A stretch of DNA of 45,769 nt from a virus. Shown here piece after piece: positions 13,880-32,496 of this stretch; within the stretch, counting starts at the first letter, position 1; every line of letters begins with the position of its first letter. The notes under the pieces were generated by a model that was not told the origin of the DNA, made no database searches, and was given only the letters and a program-made list of their open reading frames with translations. The stretch covers positions 1-45,769 of the IMG/VR virus record IMGVR_UViG_3300035670_000383; one strand, written 5' to 3'. A program made the translations under genes and the position numbers.

Positions 13880-14622
13880 CGCGTGAACACCAGCTCGATC
13901 TCCACCGTGTAGCGGGTGCTCTTCGCTCCGCCGGAGATTATCACCTCAGCCGATGGCGTGGGGAAGCTCACCGGATACCACACCCCAGAAGCCGGGCGGG
14001 TGACCACCTGCGTCTCAAACCACGTCCGCAGGGTGCCATAATCCGTTGCGCTTACATGCGCCCTTACCCGTCGCGTCGCAGTGGCCCCCAGCGGCCCCGT
14101 GAAGTAATGGCGGCCCCCGGCCGATAGCTGCGGCTGCGGGCTGTCTGCATACCCGTCAGGCGGCTCCAGAGGCGTCACCGTGACCGTCCCCAGCGTGATG
14201 GTCGAGAACGAGGGGATAACGGCCTCGCTGTTCTGCCGCTGCTTCTCCTGCTCCCGCAGCAGCACCTGCAGCGCTTGCGTCGCATCCACCAGCTCGAAGC
14301 TGGCGTCCAGATACACCCCGGCAGGCGTACCGCTCGGCGCTGCGGTGAACCAGCACGACACGGCAGACCACGACTGGCCGAACCCCGTCCCGGTGAAGCT
14401 GACGTGGCTCCCGATGCTCCCGGAGAGCAGCGTGTCCTGGTCCGTGATCCTGCTGTTCCGCCACGTGTCGTAGACGCTGATCAGGTTCGTCCACTGCGCC
14501 TTGGTGAGCAGCCCCGATACTGTCCACTTCCGTGCCGTGAGTCCGTCCCGTGCGTCGCCCTCATAGCCGAAGGGCTGTGCCGTCAGGGCATTGGTGGAGA
14601 ACGCGCCGATGGTGATAGTCAT
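13876..14622 (-). CDS. Distal-tail-like protein
   Basis: 248 aa. Two similar beta-rich halves: the first has KWTVSGLLTKAQWTNLISVY, the second TRRVRAHVSATDYGTLRTWF. Proteins with this pattern, placed directly after the tape measure, form the distal-tail ring. It overlaps both neighbours by ATGA. The helix VDATQALQVLLREQEKQRQ links the halves. Confidence 0.6.
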   Translation of the reverse strand: MTITIGAFSTNALTAQPFGYEGDARDGLTARKWTVSGLLTKAQWTNLISVYDTWRNSRITDQDTLLSGSIGSHVSFTGTGFGQSWSAVSCWFTAAPSGTPAGVYLDASFELVDATQALQVLLREQEKQRQNSEAVIPSFSTITLGTVTVTPLEPPDGYADSPQPQLSAGGRHYFTGPLGATATRRVRAHVSATDYGTLRTWFETQVVTRPASGVWYPVSFPTPSAEVIISGGAKSTRYTVEIELVFTR

Positions 14623-16913
14623 GGCAGGTAGACTTGCTTCTGGCCGCCGACAGGGACGGTAACGGTAAGGTTGGACTCGCGCCCATTCACCAGACCTAAA
14701 AGCCGGTTGTTCTCTTTGGTCGCCTCTGTGTTCGCAATCTGCGCGTCCTGCAGTGCCTTATTTGCGTCTGCCAGTGCCCCTGTGGCCGCTGCGGCCTGCT
14801 GGAGCTGCTGAGTGCTAAGGCTAGACAGATCAAGCGACGGGGGCCTGACCTGCTGCTGCCTTATGGTTCCGCCTTGACCCACCACAACACGCTGGCCGCT
14901 GTCAAAGCTCCCGCCGAACTTTTGCACAAACTTTTGGGGATCAATCAGCCCAGACTGCTGGTCTCTTCTTATCTCCCCCTCTAACGTTCTCCTTGCGCCT
15001 GCCAGAGCTTTTTCCGTTGCAATGTCGGCATTGCTAAGGATGGCGTTCGCTATGTTCTCATTCGCCTTCTGCAACCTTTCGCCAGCTTCCGCCAGCTTAG
15101 CGGCGCCCTTCTCGATCTCTTCCCTGATCTTCTTGCCGGCATCCTCCAGCTTTTGTGCGCCTTTGGCTGTTTGGGCCTCAAGCTGGGCGATCTCGGCCTG
15201 GTTCTCCTTGAATTGGCTGCTGCCAATATCCAGCCCTTTGTTCTGCTCCCGCAGCGTTCTCAGCCGGGCTTCAATCTTGCCCAGCGTATTAAGCCGCTTG
15301 CTGTCTTCTTCTTGAATCCTGCGATCTTCCGCAATCTTTGCATCTCGCTCGCGTTGGATACGGTCAAGCGCTGCAACGCCTATTCCGGCCTGGACACCCC
15401 TGCTCCGTTCCTGCAGCCTCAGGATTCGTGCGTCAATCTCTGCAGTATCTCGACCTACGGCCACCACTCGCTCACGCGCAGCTCTTTGAATAGCCAGCTC
15501 GCTGTTAATCTTCTCTTGCTCGGCCCGCGCTTCTTTCAGTTGCTCGGTGACAACGGGCGTAATCGTTATTTGTTCCTGAAACAAGCCGTTGAATACTTGC
15601 CCGACCTTTACCGACTCAGTAGATCCAGTCAGCAAGAATAGCTCTTTAGACAGTAGCCTTGTCTTCTCTGTGATGGCATCAGTAGCTACGCCTTGCCGCT
15701 CCAGCTCCCGGCGCTGCCGTTCTAGCTGCAGGGTTTCGGTCTTGATCTCTTCAACACGACCAAGCCTGCTAATCTGATCCTGCAGTTCTTCTGCCTTAAT
15801 CTGCAGTTGCGCTAGCTTCCGTTCCGCTTCGGTAGTATCAACGCCAAACTCTGTCTGATCAGCAATAGTATCTTTCAGGAACGCGATCGAACGTGTAGTC
15901 TCTCCCAGTTCGTTCTTTACGGCACCCTGCAACCCACTGGCCAGCGCCTGCGTGAAGGCCAGCACCCCAGGCAGCAGCTCCTGGCCGATAGCCGCTTTCA
16001 ACTTTTCTACTTCATTCGCAAGCGATGCAAAGTTCTGCGCTGCAGTCGGCAAAGACGAACCGCCGCCGTTCAGCTCGTTCAGGCCTTTCGTCAGTGCCGG
16101 GAAGAATTGATCAGCAGTAAGGCGGCCAGATTCAACCAGCTTGATCAGCTCCTGGCTGGTCAGGCCGAGGCCACGCGCAGCCGCAGAGAACGCCGTAGGC
16201 AGCCTTTCCCCGAGCTGACCCCGTAGCTCTTCCATCTGCACGACGCCCTTAGCCGCGATCTGCTGCAGGGCCAGCAAGCTGCCATTGATGGCATCGTTGC
16301 TCAGCCCCAGCCGTTGCGCCGAGGTGCTGACAGCGGCAAACAGCTCCTTCTGTTCGCTGAGTGGGATGTTGGCCGCCGACGCTGCAGCGGTGAAGCTGCC
16401 AAACGAATCGGCTAGGACCGTGAAACTGATCCCCAGCCGATCCGACAACCCGCGCAGCTCTCCAATCGCCTGCGTTGCGCCAGACTCCCCGAGCGTGTTG
16501 CTGAGCTTGCGGGTGATGTTCTCTAGCTGTGTAGCGCTATTGATTAGATCCCTGAAAACCGCAACTGCGCCGATTGTTGCCAGAGCCCCGCTCACTGCCT
16601 GCAGGGCACCACCTAACCGCTCAAGCCTTGCTCCAGCGGCGCTTGCATTTTGCCCCGTCTTCCCAATACCAGCCGCCGCTAGTTCACTTGTGGTGACAAA
16701 CCTCCCATTCTCTCGCCGTGCCCTGCCGCTCGCATCAATGAAATACTCCAGCCCATTAGCTGCCGTCAGGATCTCACGCCCTGATGCCGTAAACCGCCGC
16801 GAAATCTCAGCACCCGTCGCCGCTGCTTGCCGCTCCACCCCCTGCAGCCCAGCACGCAGCCTGGAGTCATCGACCCCTACCTCCAGAACCGCCTGCGCCA
16901 GTGTTTCCGCCAT
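14619..16913 (-). CDS. Tail tape measure protein
   Basis: 764 aa. The region ~100-300 has the tape-measure N-terminal domain pattern (LENITRKLSN; LSDRLGISFTVLADSFGSFT; MEELRGQLGERLPTAFSAAA; LIKLVESGRLTADQFFPALT). Residues ~330-690 are long coiled coil rich in E, K, Q and A. The length predicts a tail of roughly 110 nm at 1.5 angstrom per residue. The gene begins two bases after a GGCAAGCTAGG motif and is divergent from the gene at 16943. Confidence 0.85.
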   Translation of the reverse strand: MAETLAQAVLEVGVDDSRLRAGLQGVERQAAATGAEISRRFTASGREILTAANGLEYFIDASGRARRENGRFVTTSELAAAGIGKTGQNASAAGARLERLGGALQAVSGALATIGAVAVFRDLINSATQLENITRKLSNTLGESGATQAIGELRGLSDRLGISFTVLADSFGSFTAAASAANIPLSEQKELFAAVSTSAQRLGLSNDAINGSLLALQQIAAKGVVQMEELRGQLGERLPTAFSAAARGLGLTSQELIKLVESGRLTADQFFPALTKGLNELNGGGSSLPTAAQNFASLANEVEKLKAAIGQELLPGVLAFTQALASGLQGAVKNELGETTRSIAFLKDTIADQTEFGVDTTEAERKLAQLQIKAEELQDQISRLGRVEEIKTETLQLERQRRELERQGVATDAITEKTRLLSKELFLLTGSTESVKVGQVFNGLFQEQITITPVVTEQLKEARAEQEKINSELAIQRAARERVVAVGRDTAEIDARILRLQERSRGVQAGIGVAALDRIQRERDAKIAEDRRIQEEDSKRLNTLGKIEARLRTLREQNKGLDIGSSQFKENQAEIAQLEAQTAKGAQKLEDAGKKIREEIEKGAAKLAEAGERLQKANENIANAILSNADIATEKALAGARRTLEGEIRRDQQSGLIDPQKFVQKFGGSFDSGQRVVVGQGGTIRQQQVRPPSLDLSSLSTQQLQQAAAATGALADANKALQDAQIANTEATKENNRLLGLVNGRESNLTVTVPVGGQKQVYLP

Positions 16914-21667: not shown

Positions 21668-22231
21668 CAGTCAGGCGCCGGGGACTGCCATATCTTAAGC
21701 GCAGCCACAAGCTGTCGGGCCGACTGTCTCGCATCCATTAAAGGGTGGTGTGCGGGAAGCTCGTCCGGCTGCCTTTCAGTCAGCCTAAGCGGATCGATGC
21801 CCAACGCCAGAAAGACGCTTGCCAGATCATGGAGCGGGTAAGGCCCCTCCCACTCGCGTTCACCGTGGTTCAGCTTAACGCAGTCGCTAAGGAACCTTGC
21901 TTCAACGGGCCAAGCACAATCCGCTACCAGCACGGCACCTTGATCGGCCCAATGTCGCCACTCATGCCAGAACGTATTGAGCATGTGCTGCCGCGTCGGG
22001 CTGGTGACAGGAAGATTCGGCACATTCTGCGCGATCCACTCCCTGCTTTTAGCAGTGCCCTTGCATTGGGCCGGATCACACGCCAAGAGGCCTTCTCCGT
22101 GGGGCATCCCATCTCTACCAACCACAACCCAAGCGGCTGCAAAACCTTGACCGTGCAGGCCGACGCTCTCAACGTCAAAGACCATGAAGAGGTTGACCAT
22201 CAGTCAGGCGCCGGGGACTGCCATATCTTAA
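21664..22231. repeat. 35-bp direct repeat flanking the exonuclease-like gene
   Basis: Identical sequence at 21664-21698 and 22197-22231 (begins CCATCAGTCAGGCGCCGGGG). Each copy encodes, on the minus strand, KIWQSPAPD, the stop, and the overlapping ATG of the next gene. Confidence 0.9.
21667..22200 (-). CDS. DEDDh-type 3'-5' exonuclease-like protein in an inserted cassette
   Basis: 177 aa. FDVESVGLHG (residues 8-17) carries the DxE motif and HHPLMDARQSARQL (~150-163) the His and Asp of the last motif, as in DnaQ-type exonucleases. A D in VLVADCAWPVEARFL fits the middle motif. The last nine residues, KIWQSPAPD, are identical to those of the upstream MuF gene, and the DNA of that end is a 35-bp direct repeat. 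The gene starts inside MuF's stop (TGATG). This looks like an insertion that copied the target's 3' end and so restored coupling to the next gene. Substrate unknown. Confidence 0.7.
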   Translation of the reverse strand: MVNLFMVFDVESVGLHGQGFAAAWVVVGRDGMPHGEGLLACDPAQCKGTAKSREWIAQNVPNLPVTSPTRQHMLNTFWHEWRHWADQGAVLVADCAWPVEARFLSDCVKLNHGEREWEGPYPLHDLASVFLALGIDPLRLTERQPDELPAHHPLMDARQSARQLVAALKIWQSPAPD

Positions 22232-24071
22232 CCGCCTTGTCGAACGAGATCACATCCGGCGGCCCGAACCGCTCAAGCTGCCGCCGCCCCCAGTCCGTAT
22301 CAGGCCACGATCCGACCAGCCGGCTGCCCAGCGTCTTGCCGAAAATCTCGCGGGCCGTCTCCGGGTTGTCCCGCACCCAGACCTTCGCAGATCGACGAAA
22401 GTTCAGCGCCGCTTCCCCGCCGTCACCTTCAACTATCCTTTCCTCCCCACGCTTTCGCCATTTTCTGGGGACCATATAGCAGCGGCAGTTATGGGTTAGA
22501 ATCCCTCCAGCAAAGTACGCCCCGCTGAGCGTGCTGAAGTCATACACCTCAACATGCCTCTTCGCCTCAACCTCGACACCGACCACCTCATCAACCTCTA
22601 CAAGGGTGGGATGAGCGAAAACAAAGTCTCTCAGCTTTTCGGCATCAGCAGGGGCACCGTTCGTAAGCGGCTCATCGAAGCGGGGGTCACGCCTCGCGGC
22701 CAAAGCGAAGCGGAGTTTATCAAGTGGGCCGAAATGAGCCCCGAGGAACGCCAAAGACAGGTTCACGCTGCGAACCAAGCCGCTCGCGGTCGCGTGCGCA
22801 GCAAGGAGGAGCGCGTCAAGGGCGCTCATACCCGCCACCTGAACCAATCCCACATCAGCGACCATGAACAGCGACTCGCTGACCTCCTCAGGGCTCGCGG
22901 TGTGGCGGTATCCCAGCAGTTTCCGGTTGAGACACGCAACGTCGATCTCGCCATTCATCCCGGCCCCATCGCCGTGGAAGTCAATGGTGGAAACTGGCAC
23001 TCGACAGCGGTCCACCGTCGCCTGATGGCACAGAAGGGCAAAGACCTGTTCAGCAGTGGCTGGGCCTTGATCGAAGTCTGGGTCACCACCAAAGGCAACA
23101 CCATCCCGCCCGACTGGCAGGCTCTTACAGATCGCCTTATCGCCCTGTTTGACGAACTGCGCAGCCTTCCATCCCTCGCTGGTGAGCACCGGATGATTCT
23201 CGGTAACGGAAAGGACGCGCCCCCTATGCGTTCGTATGGTCACGACGTTCCCGCTGTAGGTCGCACGCGTGCCGGCCGCGAGTATGCCCGCCTCCACGGG
23301 CACAGTGCCTAGGACGCAGTTGAAATGAGGGTCGATCTTGTTCTGTCCGTCCCAGTATGACCCAGGCTCGCCCAACGTGTATTCCTTCCCATCAAGGCTG
23401 ACGCACACCGGGCACACTGCGCTATCCAGCGTCGCTGTCCACTGCAGCTTGCCCTCCAGCCATGCCGGGTCCGCCTCCAGCTGATACACCGCCATCTGAT
23501 ACTGGTCGCCCGTAGTCTGCACCCCGCTGGTGATCGTCGCTGAAATCGTGTTCTCCACCTTGCGGACCACCGCGTTGTCATATCGGGCGAGCACCTCACC
23601 AGCCTCGACACCGCTGCCCATCCTGATGAACTGCGACAGCCGCTCAGCAGCCTGCGCGGGGATCCCTAGCAGCATCTGATCCACCAGCGGTCTGCCGCCT
23701 ACCAGCGCCTGCTGGGTGGCTGCCACAGGGTTCGGGATGACGGCATTAGGGCGGGTCAGCGTGCCGCCGGCTGCCTCCACCATGTCGCGGGCGAACTGGG
23801 CCTGATCCTGCAGGTAGGGGCCTAGCGTCTCGCGGAACTGCTCCAGTGCGGGCTGGCCCCACTCCTGGCGGATGATCTGCGCGGCCCTGCTGGTGACGGC
23901 AGCGATGAGGCGCTCACGATCGGGACGGAGCTGCAGGACGCCGGAATCGGCCACGAGCAGTCGGATCTGCGCCATGACCGGCCGTAGCCGCCTCAGTGCG
24001 GCGCGGATGGCGCGATCCTCGACGCCCTTCTGTGCTAGGGCATTGCGGAGGAAGACCTCAACGGGGTCCAT
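22200..24071 (-). CDS. MuF/SPP1 gp7-type head protein interrupted by an intein
   Basis: The 623-aa precursor has exteins 1-251 and 529-623. The N-extein is helical, with the typical end TLDSAVCPVCVSLDGKEYTL and then PHFN; the C-extein resumes CRCYMVPRKW. Spliced, the junction gives HFNCRC, the conserved HxNCRC motif of minor head proteins that act in head assembly or DNA ejection. The intein is residues 252-528: Cys1, block A VLGTVPVEA, block B with VTENHPVL, C-terminal VYDFSTLSGAYFAGG and ILTHN, followed by Cys+1. Splicing should yield a 346-aa mature protein. Confidence 0.85.
   Translation of the reverse strand: MDPVEVFLRNALAQKGVEDRAIRAALRRLRPVMAQIRLLVADSGVLQLRPDRERLIAAVTSRAAQIIRQEWGQPALEQFRETLGPYLQDQAQFARDMVEAAGGTLTRPNAVIPNPVAATQQALVGGRPLVDQMLLGIPAQAAERLSQFIRMGSGVEAGEVLARYDNAVVRKVENTISATITSGVQTTGDQYQMAVYQLEADPAWLEGKLQWTATLDSAVCPVCVSLDGKEYTLGEPGSYWDGQNKIDPHFNCVLGTVPVEAGILAAGTRATYSGNVVTIRTHRGRVLSVTENHPVLTSEGWKAAQFVKQGDKAICKSLPVGRDGVAFGGDPDFDQGPATAEQVFALLCHQATVDRCRVPVSTIDFHGDGAGMNGEIDVACLNRKLLGYRHTASPEEVSESLFMVADVGLVQVAGMSALDALLLAAHATASGLVRSVNLSLAFLGAHFGPLDKLRFALAARRDPRFDEPLTNGAPADAEKLRDFVFAHPTLVEVDEVVGVEVEAKRHVEVYDFSTLSGAYFAGGILTHNCRCYMVPRKWRKRGEERIVEGDGGEAALNFRRSAKVWVRDNPETAREIFGKTLGSRLVGSWPDTDWGRRQLERFGPPDVISFDKAVKIWQSPAPD
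22488..23318 (-). other. Intein, 277 residues, inserted at the HxN|CRC motif
   Basis: Boundaries: Cys at 23318-23316 and Asn at 22490-22488, followed by a Cys codon. Block B Thr-x-x-His (VTENH), penultimate His and terminal Asn are all present, so splicing looks intact. The middle (~residues 315-500 of the precursor) shows no LAGLIDADG or HNH motif in this frame. The endonuclease is encoded on the other strand. Confidence 0.85.
22554..23312 (+). CDS. Vsr/EDxHD-type endonuclease with HTH, antisense within the intein DNA
   Basis: 252 aa. Residues ~12-45 form a helix-turn-helix (LYKGGMSENKVSQLFGISRG, then TVRKRLIEAGV). Residues ~104-180 form a PD-(D/E)xK/Vsr-like nuclease: E105 (HEQRLADLL), D131 (RNVDLAI), E142 (IAVEVNGGNWHS), H149, then KGKDLFSSGWALIEVWV. 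The gene lies wholly inside the intein; its TAG stop pairs with the CTA codon of intein residue 3. Codons of the two strands are in register, so each antisense codon is the reverse complement of an intein codon. The likely job is homing of the intein-containing allele. No Shine-Dalgarno is visible; the ATG at 22554 is the first usable start. Confidence 0.8.
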   Translation: MPLRLNLDTDHLINLYKGGMSENKVSQLFGISRGTVRKRLIEAGVTPRGQSEAEFIKWAEMSPEERQRQVHAANQAARGRVRSKEERVKGAHTRHLNQSHISDHEQRLADLLRARGVAVSQQFPVETRNVDLAIHPGPIAVEVNGGNWHSTAVHRRLMAQKGKDLFSSGWALIEVWVTTKGNTIPPDWQALTDRLIALFDELRSLPSLAGEHRMILGNGKDAPPMRSYGHDVPAVGRTRAGREYARLHGHSA

Positions 24072-24979: not shown

Positions 24980-26071
24980 TCAGAGAACAGCGATGGGGCA
25001 GGTGTGAACGATCCCGACAAGCGGGATGTTCTTGTTGTCGAAGACCTTAGTCCACGAGGCAGATGCCGCCAGGGTGGCAGCAGTGGGCACGCCATCGCCG
25101 GTAGGGCCGGCATAGCTGGAGCCGAGGAGGTGCATGCAAGCGTCCCACTGGACCTTGAGAATATCCTCACCTCCACTAGTCAGGATGTCGCGGTCGCCTT
25201 CAGTCCGCACAGGAGCCTGGAATCCGAGGCCGATGGCGCCGGGTTTGGCCAGGTAGCTCATATAGCGGTAGCTGCCAGCGCTACCAGTGCGGGGGGCGTT
25301 GTCGGAGACAATCACCCGCTTGCCGGCGAAGGTCGGAACCAGTTTGTCATTGGTCTCGAACTGCCCGGAGCTATCGCCCGCTACCGCATTGCTGGCGGTG
25401 ATGCTACCGGCAGCGATGGTGGAGGCAGTGACGCCAGGAAGCTCACCGGCCCGGACGTAGTTGATCATCTCCCGGATCTTCAGGAATGCGTTCAGGTCCG
25501 GGTGGATGATCAGGATGCCATAGGCGTCCTCATCTTCACCCAGAAGCCCATCGCCACGGACAACGTGACCAGCTGAAAAGTCGGTTTCACCACTGCCGGC
25601 GCCATCGATCACCATGCTGCTCATGGCATAGCCAGAGACCGAGGTGCCGGGGATGCCGTAGAGGCCCTGCAGGGTGGCCAGCAGATCAGCTTGCTGGGCA
25701 TTGGCCACATAGCCGCCCAGCTTGTTGCCGACCTCGGCCATGATGTCGCCGCTATCGCCAACGGCCAGTTTGGCCAGCTCAGAAGCACCCCAGACGTTTG
25801 CCCGGTGATGCACGACGCCCTTTTGCTTGCGGGTGCCAAGCTTGTTGACCCGCAGCATCTCGCCCTCTTGCGGCACCTGGGTATCGCCGGAGAGGTTGGG
25901 AGCCCAAGAGCGGATCTCGAAGGCGTCACCCTCCCGGATGTTTTCCGTAATCAGGGGGGTGGTAGTGACGAGGCCAGAAGTGATGAAGCGCGACCGAAGG
26001 GTGGTCTGCTCACTGACGTAGTTACTGAAAGGGGTAGCGATCTGTACATCGCTACGGTAGGTAAATGCCAT
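24980..26071 (-). CDS. Major capsid protein
   Basis: 363 aa. Follows the scaffold gene in the operon. The start MAFTYRSDVQIATPFSNYVS, DAFEIRSWAPNLSGDTQVPQ and later GLYGIPGTSVSG, LIIHPDLNAFLKIREMINYV and GKRVIVSDNAPRTGSAGSYR follow the layout of capsid proteins in phages with separate scaffold and DUF4055 portal. No protease gene or cleavable N-arm is obvious, consistent with the separate scaffold. HK97 fold expected. Confidence 0.75.
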   Translation of the reverse strand: MAFTYRSDVQIATPFSNYVSEQTTLRSRFITSGLVTTTPLITENIREGDAFEIRSWAPNLSGDTQVPQEGEMLRVNKLGTRKQKGVVHHRANVWGASELAKLAVGDSGDIMAEVGNKLGGYVANAQQADLLATLQGLYGIPGTSVSGYAMSSMVIDGAGSGETDFSAGHVVRGDGLLGEDEDAYGILIIHPDLNAFLKIREMINYVRAGELPGVTASTIAAGSITASNAVAGDSSGQFETNDKLVPTFAGKRVIVSDNAPRTGSAGSYRYMSYLAKPGAIGLGFQAPVRTEGDRDILTSGGEDILKVQWDACMHLLGSSYAGPTGDGVPTAATLAASASWTKVFDNKNIPLVGIVHTCPIAVL

Positions 26072-27453: not shown

Positions 27454-28980
27454 TCAGACCTCCGGTGACTGGCTAGCTTGCCCGCCTGCTGGCGGTGCTC
27501 CACTGGCGGGGGGCTGCCCCTGCGCGTCCATCATCATCCGCAACTCTTCCTCCCGCTTGGCCTGCATCTCGGCCTGCTGCTGTGCGGTTTCCTCCAGCTC
27601 GCGGTCTACGTCGAAGTCGTCGTAAAACGCTCGGCGGCTGGCGAGGCTGATCAGCAGCGTTTCCTGCGTGATCTCACCGGCTGCCCGCAGGTCCGCCAGG
27701 AACTTGCCGACGGTAGCATCGAGCGTTACCTCAGTGAACTCGGTATTGACCATCGCCCGGCCGACACCATCCGGCGGGAGGCCCAGATATTCCCCGTGAA
27801 ACCGGAGGGCAGTGTCGATCATGTCCTGGAGCTGAAGCGCAATGCTCATCAGCGTCCCATCGCCCTGGCTGCGGCTGATCTCTTTGCTGGTGCCGCTCTC
27901 AGCTACAGCCTTCTCACCATGCACCGTGGCGAGGCCCAGTTCCTTGATCTGCCGTTCCAGCAGCTCTAGGTGCCTGAACTGATACTCATAGCTGGTGCCG
28001 GCAGGCTCTGAGAACTCGACACGGGCATCAACCGGCAGCGCGGTGGCATAGCTCGGGCCTACCGTGATCCCTTCAACCTCACCAGGCAGGCCGAACACGA
28101 ACTGGCGCGGCACCGCCGCAATGTGAAGCTGGTTCGCTAGGTCACTGCTGCGCCGGTAGGAGGCAAGATTTAACCAAGCCACCTCCTCCAGCCCCGGCAC
28201 GCTTTCCAGCAGCCCCACTCGGTTGGCATAGGCGACCGCAAACGGGATTTTCTCCAGCGTGGTCGGGCCGCTGTCCACCATCTCAAAATCAAGCGTCGCG
28301 CCCCCCTTGCTGCGCCATAGCTCGAAGCTGCCGGGCCTGAGCACCCTGATCTGCGTTACGGCCTCCTCCCCGTAGATGGCGGTGCCGCTGCCGTTCGTCG
28401 GGTCATAAGGCAAAACGATCTCTTCCCTTAGGCGCAACTCTGTGATGCGCTGGCTGCCGCCTTCGATCGCGGTCCTCCAGCCGAGGATGTCGCGGGGGGT
28501 TACACCGATCCAGTAGGGGCGGTTCTCTTCGCCCTCCTCCCGTGGCATATCGACCAGGGTGCCGATGTGCCCGTAGCGGATCATCAGCTTGGCCTGGGTG
28601 TAGAGCCAGGCATCAAGGTCGTTGCCCTGTAGATCGACGTTGAACAGCTGCTCCCTGACGGCATCGGGCACGTCCTCAAGTCTGATCGCCTGCCGGCACA
28701 GCAGGCCCGCAAGCATGTTCTCCAGCCGCAGCATGTACGGGGGGCACATGCTGTTACTGAGCCGCACTGCATAGGATTCGTCAGCCTCCTCCGGCTCGCG
28801 TGGCAGCCACCGCTCGGCCTGCTGCTGCATGTAGAGGGTTCCAGCAGCGAGGGCTTCGGGTAGCTCCCACCGTGGGGCCATCCGCTCCCAAACCTGCCCC
28901 GGCTGCCAGACCTCAAGGGTGCGGGCAGTGGTGGGGTGCGACTGGATGCGGGCCTTTTCGGTGCCGTAGGAATAGGTCAT
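27454..28980 (-). CDS. Portal protein, DUF4055-like
   Basis: 508 aa. SMCPPYMLRLENMLAGLLCR, QAKLMIRYGHIGTLVDMPRE, RPYWIGVTPRDILGW and the late coiled-coil RELEETAQQQAEMQAKREEE match the DUF4055 portal family used by podo- and siphovirus-like phages. Forms the dodecameric DNA gate at the head vertex. The C-terminal ~50 residues are Gln, Pro and Gly-rich and probably disordered. Confidence 0.8.
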   Translation of the reverse strand: MTYSYGTEKARIQSHPTTARTLEVWQPGQVWERMAPRWELPEALAAGTLYMQQQAERWLPREPEEADESYAVRLSNSMCPPYMLRLENMLAGLLCRQAIRLEDVPDAVREQLFNVDLQGNDLDAWLYTQAKLMIRYGHIGTLVDMPREEGEENRPYWIGVTPRDILGWRTAIEGGSQRITELRLREEIVLPYDPTNGSGTAIYGEEAVTQIRVLRPGSFELWRSKGGATLDFEMVDSGPTTLEKIPFAVAYANRVGLLESVPGLEEVAWLNLASYRRSSDLANQLHIAAVPRQFVFGLPGEVEGITVGPSYATALPVDARVEFSEPAGTSYEYQFRHLELLERQIKELGLATVHGEKAVAESGTSKEISRSQGDGTLMSIALQLQDMIDTALRFHGEYLGLPPDGVGRAMVNTEFTEVTLDATVGKFLADLRAAGEITQETLLISLASRRAFYDDFDVDRELEETAQQQAEMQAKREEELRMMMDAQGQPPASGAPPAGGQASQSPEV

Positions 28981-31134: not shown

Positions 31135-32496
31135 CTAGTACAGCCTGACCGATCGCACCGGCCCCGCCAGCGGCTTGCCGGCCGCGAAGATCCGGTGCAG
31201 CGGGTAGCTCCATGCGTCCGTCCGGTGGTCGTTCCCGTTTTTCTTGTCTGGGTCTCCTTTTTCGTCGTAGCAGTGCCGCTCTAGGTCTTGGATCAGCCCC
31301 ACGCAGCGGGGGTCAATCACTACGTTGATTTCATCCTTTGCGTTCTGCAGCCTGCTGTTCGCCACCTTAATGCGGTCTTTTACGTCTGGGTTAGCTCTCC
31401 CGGAATAGTTGCCTATGTCGAACTCTGCCATGATGTTGATGTCGCTTTTCGTGCTATTGGTGGTGCCCCTGATGCCGCTGGCGTCTGGGTAGCCGTGGAT
31501 TGTGGCGTAAGGGTATCGACGCCGGACCTCCTTGCATAGCCGCTCGGTGTCGTGCTCCTTGATCTCGTCAATCACGGCCATCATGCTGCCCCGCTTGACC
31601 TGCACGATCCCGTTGGTGTTGCCGATGTTGAAATCGCAGCCCAGGATCAGCGTCTCGCCGTCGTCGGGGTCGAACTCAACGGGCCGGACGTGGCGGGCGC
31701 GGTCGAACTTATACCAGACGCTGCCGGTGAGGAGGTTTTGGTAGATCCCCTCACGGTAGGCGCGCAACTCCTCGGCAGTGTAGTTCCGCTCCATCTGCTC
31801 GAAGTAGTCCGGCGGAAGGTGCGGGTTGTCGTCGCTGCGCATCCTGATGAGCTTCCGGCCGGGGATGGACTGGGCTTCATCGCTGCCGAACATCTGGTAG
31901 TGGAAGCCGAAGCCCTCGGGCGTGGAGGTCATGATCTTCTGCCTGACCTGCCCTGCCCTGATCCGGCCAAGGATCTTCTTGTAAGCCTTGAAGGCCTCGC
32001 TGGTCTTGACGGTGTCCACCTCATCCCCGATAGCCCAGGCCCAGTCCATGCCGACGATGCGGCGGTAGTTCTCGAAGCTGCGGGCGACGACCACGGAGGT
32101 GACACCACCGGGGAGGTGCAGGGTGTGCTGCGGGGTGTTGCGACCCCGGTAGAAGTCGTAAGGGATGGCGAGGCGGTCTAGCACCTCCTCGAACTTGGGC
32201 AGCCAGATTTCATCCACCATGCTGTTAGTGGGCTCCAGGACGCCACCGACACAGCCGGGGTTCAGGATGGAGAGCTTGATGGCCTTGTAGGCGTCGGCGG
32301 TTGTTTTTCCCGACCCATACCCTGCGACCACGCCGATCTCATCGGAGTCGTCGTCGTCGAACATCTCAAGCTGGCCGCCGTGGAGATGGGAGCGCATCTT
32401 GGCCAGCAGCTCCTCGCGGGTGCCTTGGTAGCGGTTGCCGCCTTCCTGCCCTGGCTTGGCGAGGATTGAGCGACCACGCGAACGGAGGATGCCCAT
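31135..32496 (-). CDS. terL: Terminase large subunit
   Basis: 453 aa. The ATPase motor has Walker A GYGSGKT (residues 59-65) and Walker B-like WAIGDEVD (~154-161), with the coupling region KIMTSTPEGFGF (~185). The nuclease domain begins with LILGCDFNIG (~285-294), the first catalytic Asp. Cuts and packages concatemeric DNA into the prohead. Overlaps the small subunit by one base context (stop/start). Length is normal for the family. Confidence 0.9.
   Translation of the reverse strand: MGILRSRGRSILAKPGQEGGNRYQGTREELLAKMRSHLHGGQLEMFDDDDSDEIGVVAGYGSGKTTADAYKAIKLSILNPGCVGGVLEPTNSMVDEIWLPKFEEVLDRLAIPYDFYRGRNTPQHTLHLPGGVTSVVVARSFENYRRIVGMDWAWAIGDEVDTVKTSEAFKAYKKILGRIRAGQVRQKIMTSTPEGFGFHYQMFGSDEAQSIPGRKLIRMRSDDNPHLPPDYFEQMERNYTAEELRAYREGIYQNLLTGSVWYKFDRARHVRPVEFDPDDGETLILGCDFNIGNTNGIVQVKRGSMMAVIDEIKEHDTERLCKEVRRRYPYATIHGYPDASGIRGTTNSTKSDINIMAEFDIGNYSGRANPDVKDRIKVANSRLQNAKDEINVVIDPRCVGLIQDLERHCYDEKGDPDKKNGNDHRTDAWSYPLHRIFAAGKPLAGPVRSVRLY

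Follow-up and report, generated by a model that had tools for sequence, protein, structure and literature searches.

Can a single stretch of DNA encode a self-splicing protein on one strand and, codon on codon, the endonuclease that spreads it on the other? This question is raised by a viral DNA of 45,769 nucleotides (IMG/VR record IMGVR_UViG_3300035670_000383, positions 1 to 45,769), referred to here in its entirety as the window. On its minus strand lies the gene of a MuF-like minor head protein (22200..24071), an open reading frame (ORF) for a precursor of 623 amino acids that matches PHROG head proteins and, weakly, Phage_Mu_F. This gene is interrupted by an intein of 277 residues (22488..23318, minus strand), opposite which a plus-strand gene of 252 codons plus a TAG stop (22554..23312) runs in codon-on-codon register. 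We conclude that this is very probably a mobile intein with its splicing function on one strand and a Vsr/EDxHD-type homing endonuclease on the complementary strand. Beyond the window, the element likely represents a type of intein widespread in phages, with ~250 codons encoding a splicing domain and a homing nuclease on opposite strands in strict codon register, the active-site strand of the nuclease lying over the intein motif DFHGDG and intein block F also supplying the ribosome-binding site and start codon of the nuclease gene: two unrelated enzymes, selected as a sense-antisense pair and mobile into several host genes.

Intein and nuclease on complementary codons

The intein extends from C1 to N277 and is followed by Cys+1 of the C-extein (22485..22487, minus strand), the junctions reading PHFN|CVLGT...ILTHN|CRCYMVP. 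Its assignment rests on profiles, a Hint model and conserved motifs. The Pfam family Intein_splicing matches the minus-strand protein with an E value of 3e-4, under the gathering score, the NCBIfam family intein_Nterm matches it as well, and in a profile search the intein profile finds MjaKlbA, MtuRecA and other inteins. Block B (TENHPVLT, 23181..23204, minus strand) contains T39 and H42, and blocks F and G (HVEVYDFSTLSGAYFAGGILTHN) occupy 22488..22556 on the same strand. Among 40 intein homologs, C1, G23, H42, G49 and D117 are invariant and T39, P40, N41, T46, G116, V258, Y268 and N277 nearly so; the residues expected of a class 1 intein (C1, T39, H42, H276-N277 and Cys+1) are all present in the window and conserved across these homologs. 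In an AlphaFold (AF2) model, residues 1-65 and 240-277 together form a Hint domain, the ends of which have a predicted local distance difference test score (pLDDT) above 90. A confident extra element is seen at about residues 100-130, the linker 135-223 is predicted to be disordered, and the top Foldseek matches of the model are inteins. The motif DFHGDG (residues 113-118, 22965..22982, minus strand; D117 invariant in 42/42) lies opposite the catalytic E142 and the AVEV strand of the nuclease. Scans of the sense frame against Pfam and NCBIfam families gave no nuclease match, and hence no in-frame endonuclease domain. Taken together, sequence and model indicate an intact-looking intein of class 1 type, for which splicing is predicted.

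The plus-strand protein begins with a helix-turn-helix (HTH; residues 9-45, 22578..22688), identified by matches to resolvase-like HTH domains and by model helices at 9-17, 22-29 and 33-42. A Vsr/EDxHD-type nuclease domain follows at residues 103-176 (22860..23081, plus strand), as defined by alignments of 19 and 42 homologs. The Pfam family REase_MTES_1575 matches this protein with an E value of 1.9e-8, just under its gathering score, and HTH families match too. When compared with solved structures, the profile of 42 homologs finds the catalytic domain of I-Bth0305I (3r3p, E 9.2e-7), the endonuclease-like 3hrl and several resolvase/transposase HTH domains. The AF2 model (pLDDT 86.6) shows the HTH as three helices at the N-terminus, then a helical linker and the nuclease domain, and its best solved Foldseek match is Vsr (5.6e-4), I-Bth0305I being found at 1.7e-2. 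E105 (22866-22868), D131 (22944-22946) and E142 (22977-22979) are invariant; H149 (22998-23000) is common (32/42), not universal. These profiles and folds point to a Vsr-like nuclease of the PD-(D/E)XK fold, predicted to cleave DNA. The stop codon TAG (23310-23312) overlies the CTA codon of intein residue 3, and in nearly all family loci the nuclease stop is found opposite intein residues 2-22.

Much of this had been proposed in an original prediction made from the letters of the DNA. The ORF coordinates, the 277-residue intein ahead of CRC and the exact register were as claimed, the stop codon over intein residue 3 and the N-terminal HTH were both found in place, the middle of the sense frame was correctly described as having no endonuclease motif, and the profile check that it called for recognised an intein family on one strand and a nuclease family on the other. 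Of the nuclease core that it named (D131, E142 and H149), the two acidic residues stood, with E105 to be added, and the histidine held in only part of the family.

At its other end, the nuclease starts within intein block F. The CAT codon of intein residue H255 is the complement of the nuclease ATG (22554-22556), and block F (GHVYNLE) is, on the opposite strand, a start codon with GAG(G) upstream. The codons used in block F follow this second reading: its His is encoded by CAT, which yields the antisense ATG, in 48/52 cases as against 144/333 His codons in exteins (p 4e-12), and the Leu of VYNL by CTC, which yields the GAG of an antisense Shine-Dalgarno sequence, in 42/51 as against 415/1942 in exteins (p 1e-19).

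Breadth of the family and selection on both strands

A tblastn search with the antisense protein matched 126 phage records; in the best matches listed, the nuclease lies inside genes annotated as head, minor capsid or hypothetical protein. Searches of viral contigs with clade alignments added ~80 further loci and one locus in a bacterial genome, a Gordonia-type query giving no match among the viral contigs. In 102 loci including the window (65 non-redundant), the two frames share the register and the sense frame is free of stops opposite the nuclease. An unverified record (L019) and a locus broken in both frames (L046) were left out of the set, sequence error or decay being the likely cause, and a locus matched in its HTH only (L106) was dropped from the family. 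When DNA was searched for the sense motif DFHGDG, with no reference to the nuclease, 159 loci were returned that partly overlap contigs already in the family set; 99 of these are in intein-like ORFs, and the antisense nuclease was recognised by profile in 97 of the 99. Two apparent multi-stop cases (L137 and L198) were counting artefacts at the edges, the antisense frames crossing the nuclease without stops.

The host genes of inteins with this layout encode MuF, portal-MuF fusions, minor capsid protein 2 and VG15/protease-like head proteins. The same layout also occurs in TerL (L159 and L192) and in a DNA polymerase (L220), and it is therefore not tied to MuF.

The open frame taken alone is a weak signal. 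In the window, an in-register open antisense frame of this kind is only mildly unusual given codon usage (P ~0.007), and in other genes of the window in-register antisense runs reach 218 codons. In this GC-rich genome, runs of ~200 codons are no rarity, and the case was therefore not rested on open frames; it is nuclease homology, conservation in more than 100 loci and tests of selection that place the antisense frame far beyond chance. Over the 65 non-redundant loci, codon usage predicts 402 antisense stops and none is observed. We then held the sense protein fixed and permuted its synonymous codons: across 595 pairs, which are not mutually independent so that Z values are descriptive, the antisense product was conserved above expectation with a median Z of 5.4 (96% above 2). 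With the antisense product fixed and codons permuted, the sense product was likewise conserved above expectation (median Z 3.2, 85% above 2, same number of pairs). Exteins of the same genes, used as a control of the codon permutation, gave a median Z of 0.13 with 2% above 2, as compared with 5.5 for the inteins of those pairs.

Substitutions tell the same story. Among close relatives, those in the overlap fall preferentially on the first base of sense codons, which is the third base of antisense codons, the ratio of sense position 1 to position 3 being 1.1-2.1 in the overlap versus 0.11-0.87 in exteins. In every clade except one, sequence change is slower in the overlap than in the exteins; the outlier is a Gordonia pair, whose intein has diverged further than the sequence flanking it. 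Conservation of either frame exceeds the level that the opposite frame would enforce, and the homologous inteins, once aligned, keep the antisense frame open and in the same register in 102 loci; these were two of the comparisons on which the original prediction had asked to be judged.

This double constraint is unevenly distributed. Sense conservation above the null imposed by the antisense frame, which includes intein block A/B and DFHGDG, is concentrated opposite nuclease residues 129-150 and 181-253, with a weaker signal opposite 151-180. Opposite residues 46-128, the sense strand encodes an unconstrained linker with no conservation above this null. The statement that each nucleotide is doubly constrained was thus too strong: it holds for the former stretches and fails for the latter. 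At DFHGDG, the wobble bases of the nuclease are fixed, at V/I139 (opposite the sense D) in 42/42, at A140 as C in 39/41, at V141 as G in 37/38 and at E142 as A in 37/42; they are free at E105 (A 20, G 22), A73 and G79. Such frozen wobble bases indicate that the nuclease core and the intein motif share the same codons.

Mobility, decay and genomic setting

Empty sites were sought using as query the two joined flanks of a Salmonella phage MuF. Many close relatives, including Kenya-K14, Jersey, SETP3 and Escherichia phage Shashou, match it without a break, i.e. without an intein, and ZCSE7, phi135 and BPS11Q3 carry an insert of 816 bases at the site. In the Gordonia phages Angelicage and Kewpiedoll, the flanks of one and the same site are ~97% identical in DNA while the inteins share only 32% protein identity. 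Presence, absence or replacement of the element at one site among close relatives shows that it is mobile. In Acinetobacter phage IME285 (L016, 455-1348), a free-standing homolog of the nuclease is located directly downstream of an intein-less MuF, convergent with it and slightly overlapping; this may possibly be the evolutionary source of the nested gene or a relic of it.

The two functions can also part. Two loci (L082/L084) have one stop in the nuclease and an intact intein, and another (L174, 4104-4856) keeps the intein motifs, DFHGDG included, with no recognisable antisense nuclease, being either a nuclease-less derivative or an ancestor. A broken antisense frame in an intact intein, which the original prediction had named as a sign against itself, does therefore occur, only as the rare decay that a homing life cycle predicts.

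The MuF-like gene of the window belongs to a cluster of phage structural genes, where it has capsid genes on one side and tail genes on the other, with TerL at 31135-32496, portal at 27454-28980, major head protein at 24980-26071 and tape measure at 14619-16913. The nearest relatives of the major head protein are those of cyanophages KBS-S-2A and S-H1 at only ~35% identity, and by this measure the window phage appears to be without close relatives in the phage collection.

Existing annotation of these elements is uneven. The family phrog_15127 ('head protein') matches the TerL and the DNA polymerase that bear this intein; it seems to have been built on an intein-containing protein, and will for that reason mislabel many proteins as head proteins. 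In several records of Salmonella phages (L018 and others), the intein-bearing MuF is called 'NAD+--asparagine ADP-ribosyltransferase', probably a naming error. The record of Escherichia phage Snoke (L003) notes a 273-residue intein, with a mat_peptide of only 630 bases and the antisense ORF unannotated. Salmonella phage PK2 (L020, 2444-3253) is one of the few in which the antisense ORF is annotated, as a hypothetical protein atop the head gene.

Interpretation and comparison with known systems

We propose the following scheme. The sense strand would provide a self-splicing domain that removes itself from the MuF precursor, while the complementary strand would express, from its own start codon and its own message, a separate Vsr/EDxHD-type homing endonuclease. 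During mixed infection, this enzyme probably cleaves the insertion site in MuF alleles that lack the intein, and repair of the cut allele would copy the whole segment, so that splicing and homing functions travel together. That the two functions reside on complementary strands, as the original prediction held, is strongly supported by profiles, folds, 102 loci, selection and site polymorphism. Several points weigh on the other side. The nuclease is broken or missing in a few relatives, and that of the window could itself be inactive; its start lacks the good Shine-Dalgarno sequence that many relatives have, and a promoter scan of the region found no sigma-70-like site for an antisense transcript.

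Three other explanations were considered. The antisense ORF might be a by-product of base composition, since in-register stops require sense TTA, CTA or TCA codons, which are rare in GC-rich genes, and the long antisense runs in other window genes show how readily such frames arise. Nuclease homology in both profile and fold, the 402 missing stops, an antisense conservation far above the synonymous-codon null that is not seen in exteins, and the concentration of substitutions at antisense position 3 leave this explanation next to no credence; chance is refuted by the permutation test, the stop count, the extein control and the homology. Alternatively, a plain endonuclease gene might lie antisense in MuF, the sense strand being read through unspliced, as proposed for ShiLan, and the intein look being residual. 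Phage methylase insertions such as ShiLan suggest that unspliced hidden-endonuclease insertions exist (PMC11855218), and the disordered sense middle, unconstrained opposite nuclease residues 46-128, would suit such a history. We nevertheless regard it as very improbable: C1, T39/H42, G49, N277 and Cys+1 vary little or not at all among 40 divergent homologs, the intein ends are predicted to fold as a Hint domain, at block A/B and DFHGDG the sense frame is conserved above the null set by the antisense frame, and L174 has kept its splicing motifs in the absence of the nuclease.

It is also unlikely, on our assessment, that the nuclease is real and serves something other than intein homing, namely competition between phages (marker exclusion), or that the antisense message regulates MuF. 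The free-standing homolog beside an intein-less MuF in Acinetobacter phages, an arrangement as in intronless homing, would agree with the former, and antisense transcription over a late gene could in principle regulate that gene. However, presence, absence and allele replacement exactly at the intein site fit homing, and nesting in inteins of several unrelated host genes is hard to square with regulation of MuF. We therefore retain the mobile intein with an antisense homing endonuclease as the reading of this locus. On this reading, two unrelated enzymes occupy complementary codons, and selection can be measured on either strand across a large, divergent set of sequences, an uncommon opportunity to study sense-antisense double coding as it occurs in nature. 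The element explains many mis-annotated 'head proteins'; it genetically separates splicing from homing, either of which can disappear by itself, and is a source of compact inteins whose nuclease can be detached. For crosses, laboratory coliphages exist both with and without the intein.

How does this arrangement compare with known systems? Canonical inteins that contain a homing endonuclease (PI-SceI, MtuRecA type) share with it the Hint domain, blocks A, B, F and G, the insertion between N- and C-terminal splicing parts, and a homing cycle with empty and occupied alleles. Their endonuclease is, however, an in-frame domain of the LAGLIDADG or HNH type, whereas here it is a separate Vsr/EDxHD-like gene on the complementary strand. 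With I-Bth0305I and other EDxHD homing endonucleases, the window nuclease shares fold and profile family; it differs in being nested antisense in an intact, contiguous intein and in having an N-terminal resolvase-like HTH. EDxHD endonucleases were reportedly described near split inteins in 'fractured genes' by Dassa et al. in 2009. A 2025 preprint by Gosselin, Arsenault and Gogarten is said to concern actinobacteriophage inteins with 'non-canonical architecture' and, by its title, may overlap with the present work; that title limits its scope to actinobacteriophages, and Gordonia phages do carry the present element. Antisense nesting in an intein was not found in the literature searched, in which journal coverage was incomplete and this one preprint may overlap.

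According to a review, the endonuclease of an intein is fused to it in frame (PMC3943268). Closer in layout are ShiLan and Pacc40, out-of-frame HNH insertions in phage methylases without splicing domains (PMC11855218). There too, an endonuclease is hidden in another frame of an insertion that is open in the host frame, but in the present element the nuclease runs antisense, and the frame of the host gene encodes an intein with splicing motifs and a predicted Hint fold. The nuclear group I introns of Didymium likewise have a homing endonuclease gene opposite a self-splicing element, and antisense expression was shown there (PMC9548176); in that case, by contrast, the splicing element is RNA, the endonuclease gene lies in a peripheral loop, and no protein-protein codon overlap exists. 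Inteins, EDxHD nucleases, out-of-frame HNH insertions and antisense endonuclease genes in introns were thus already known. What is provisionally new is the antisense nesting of the nuclease in an intein and, as far as checked, the breadth of this arrangement across hosts and the analysis of selection on its two strands.
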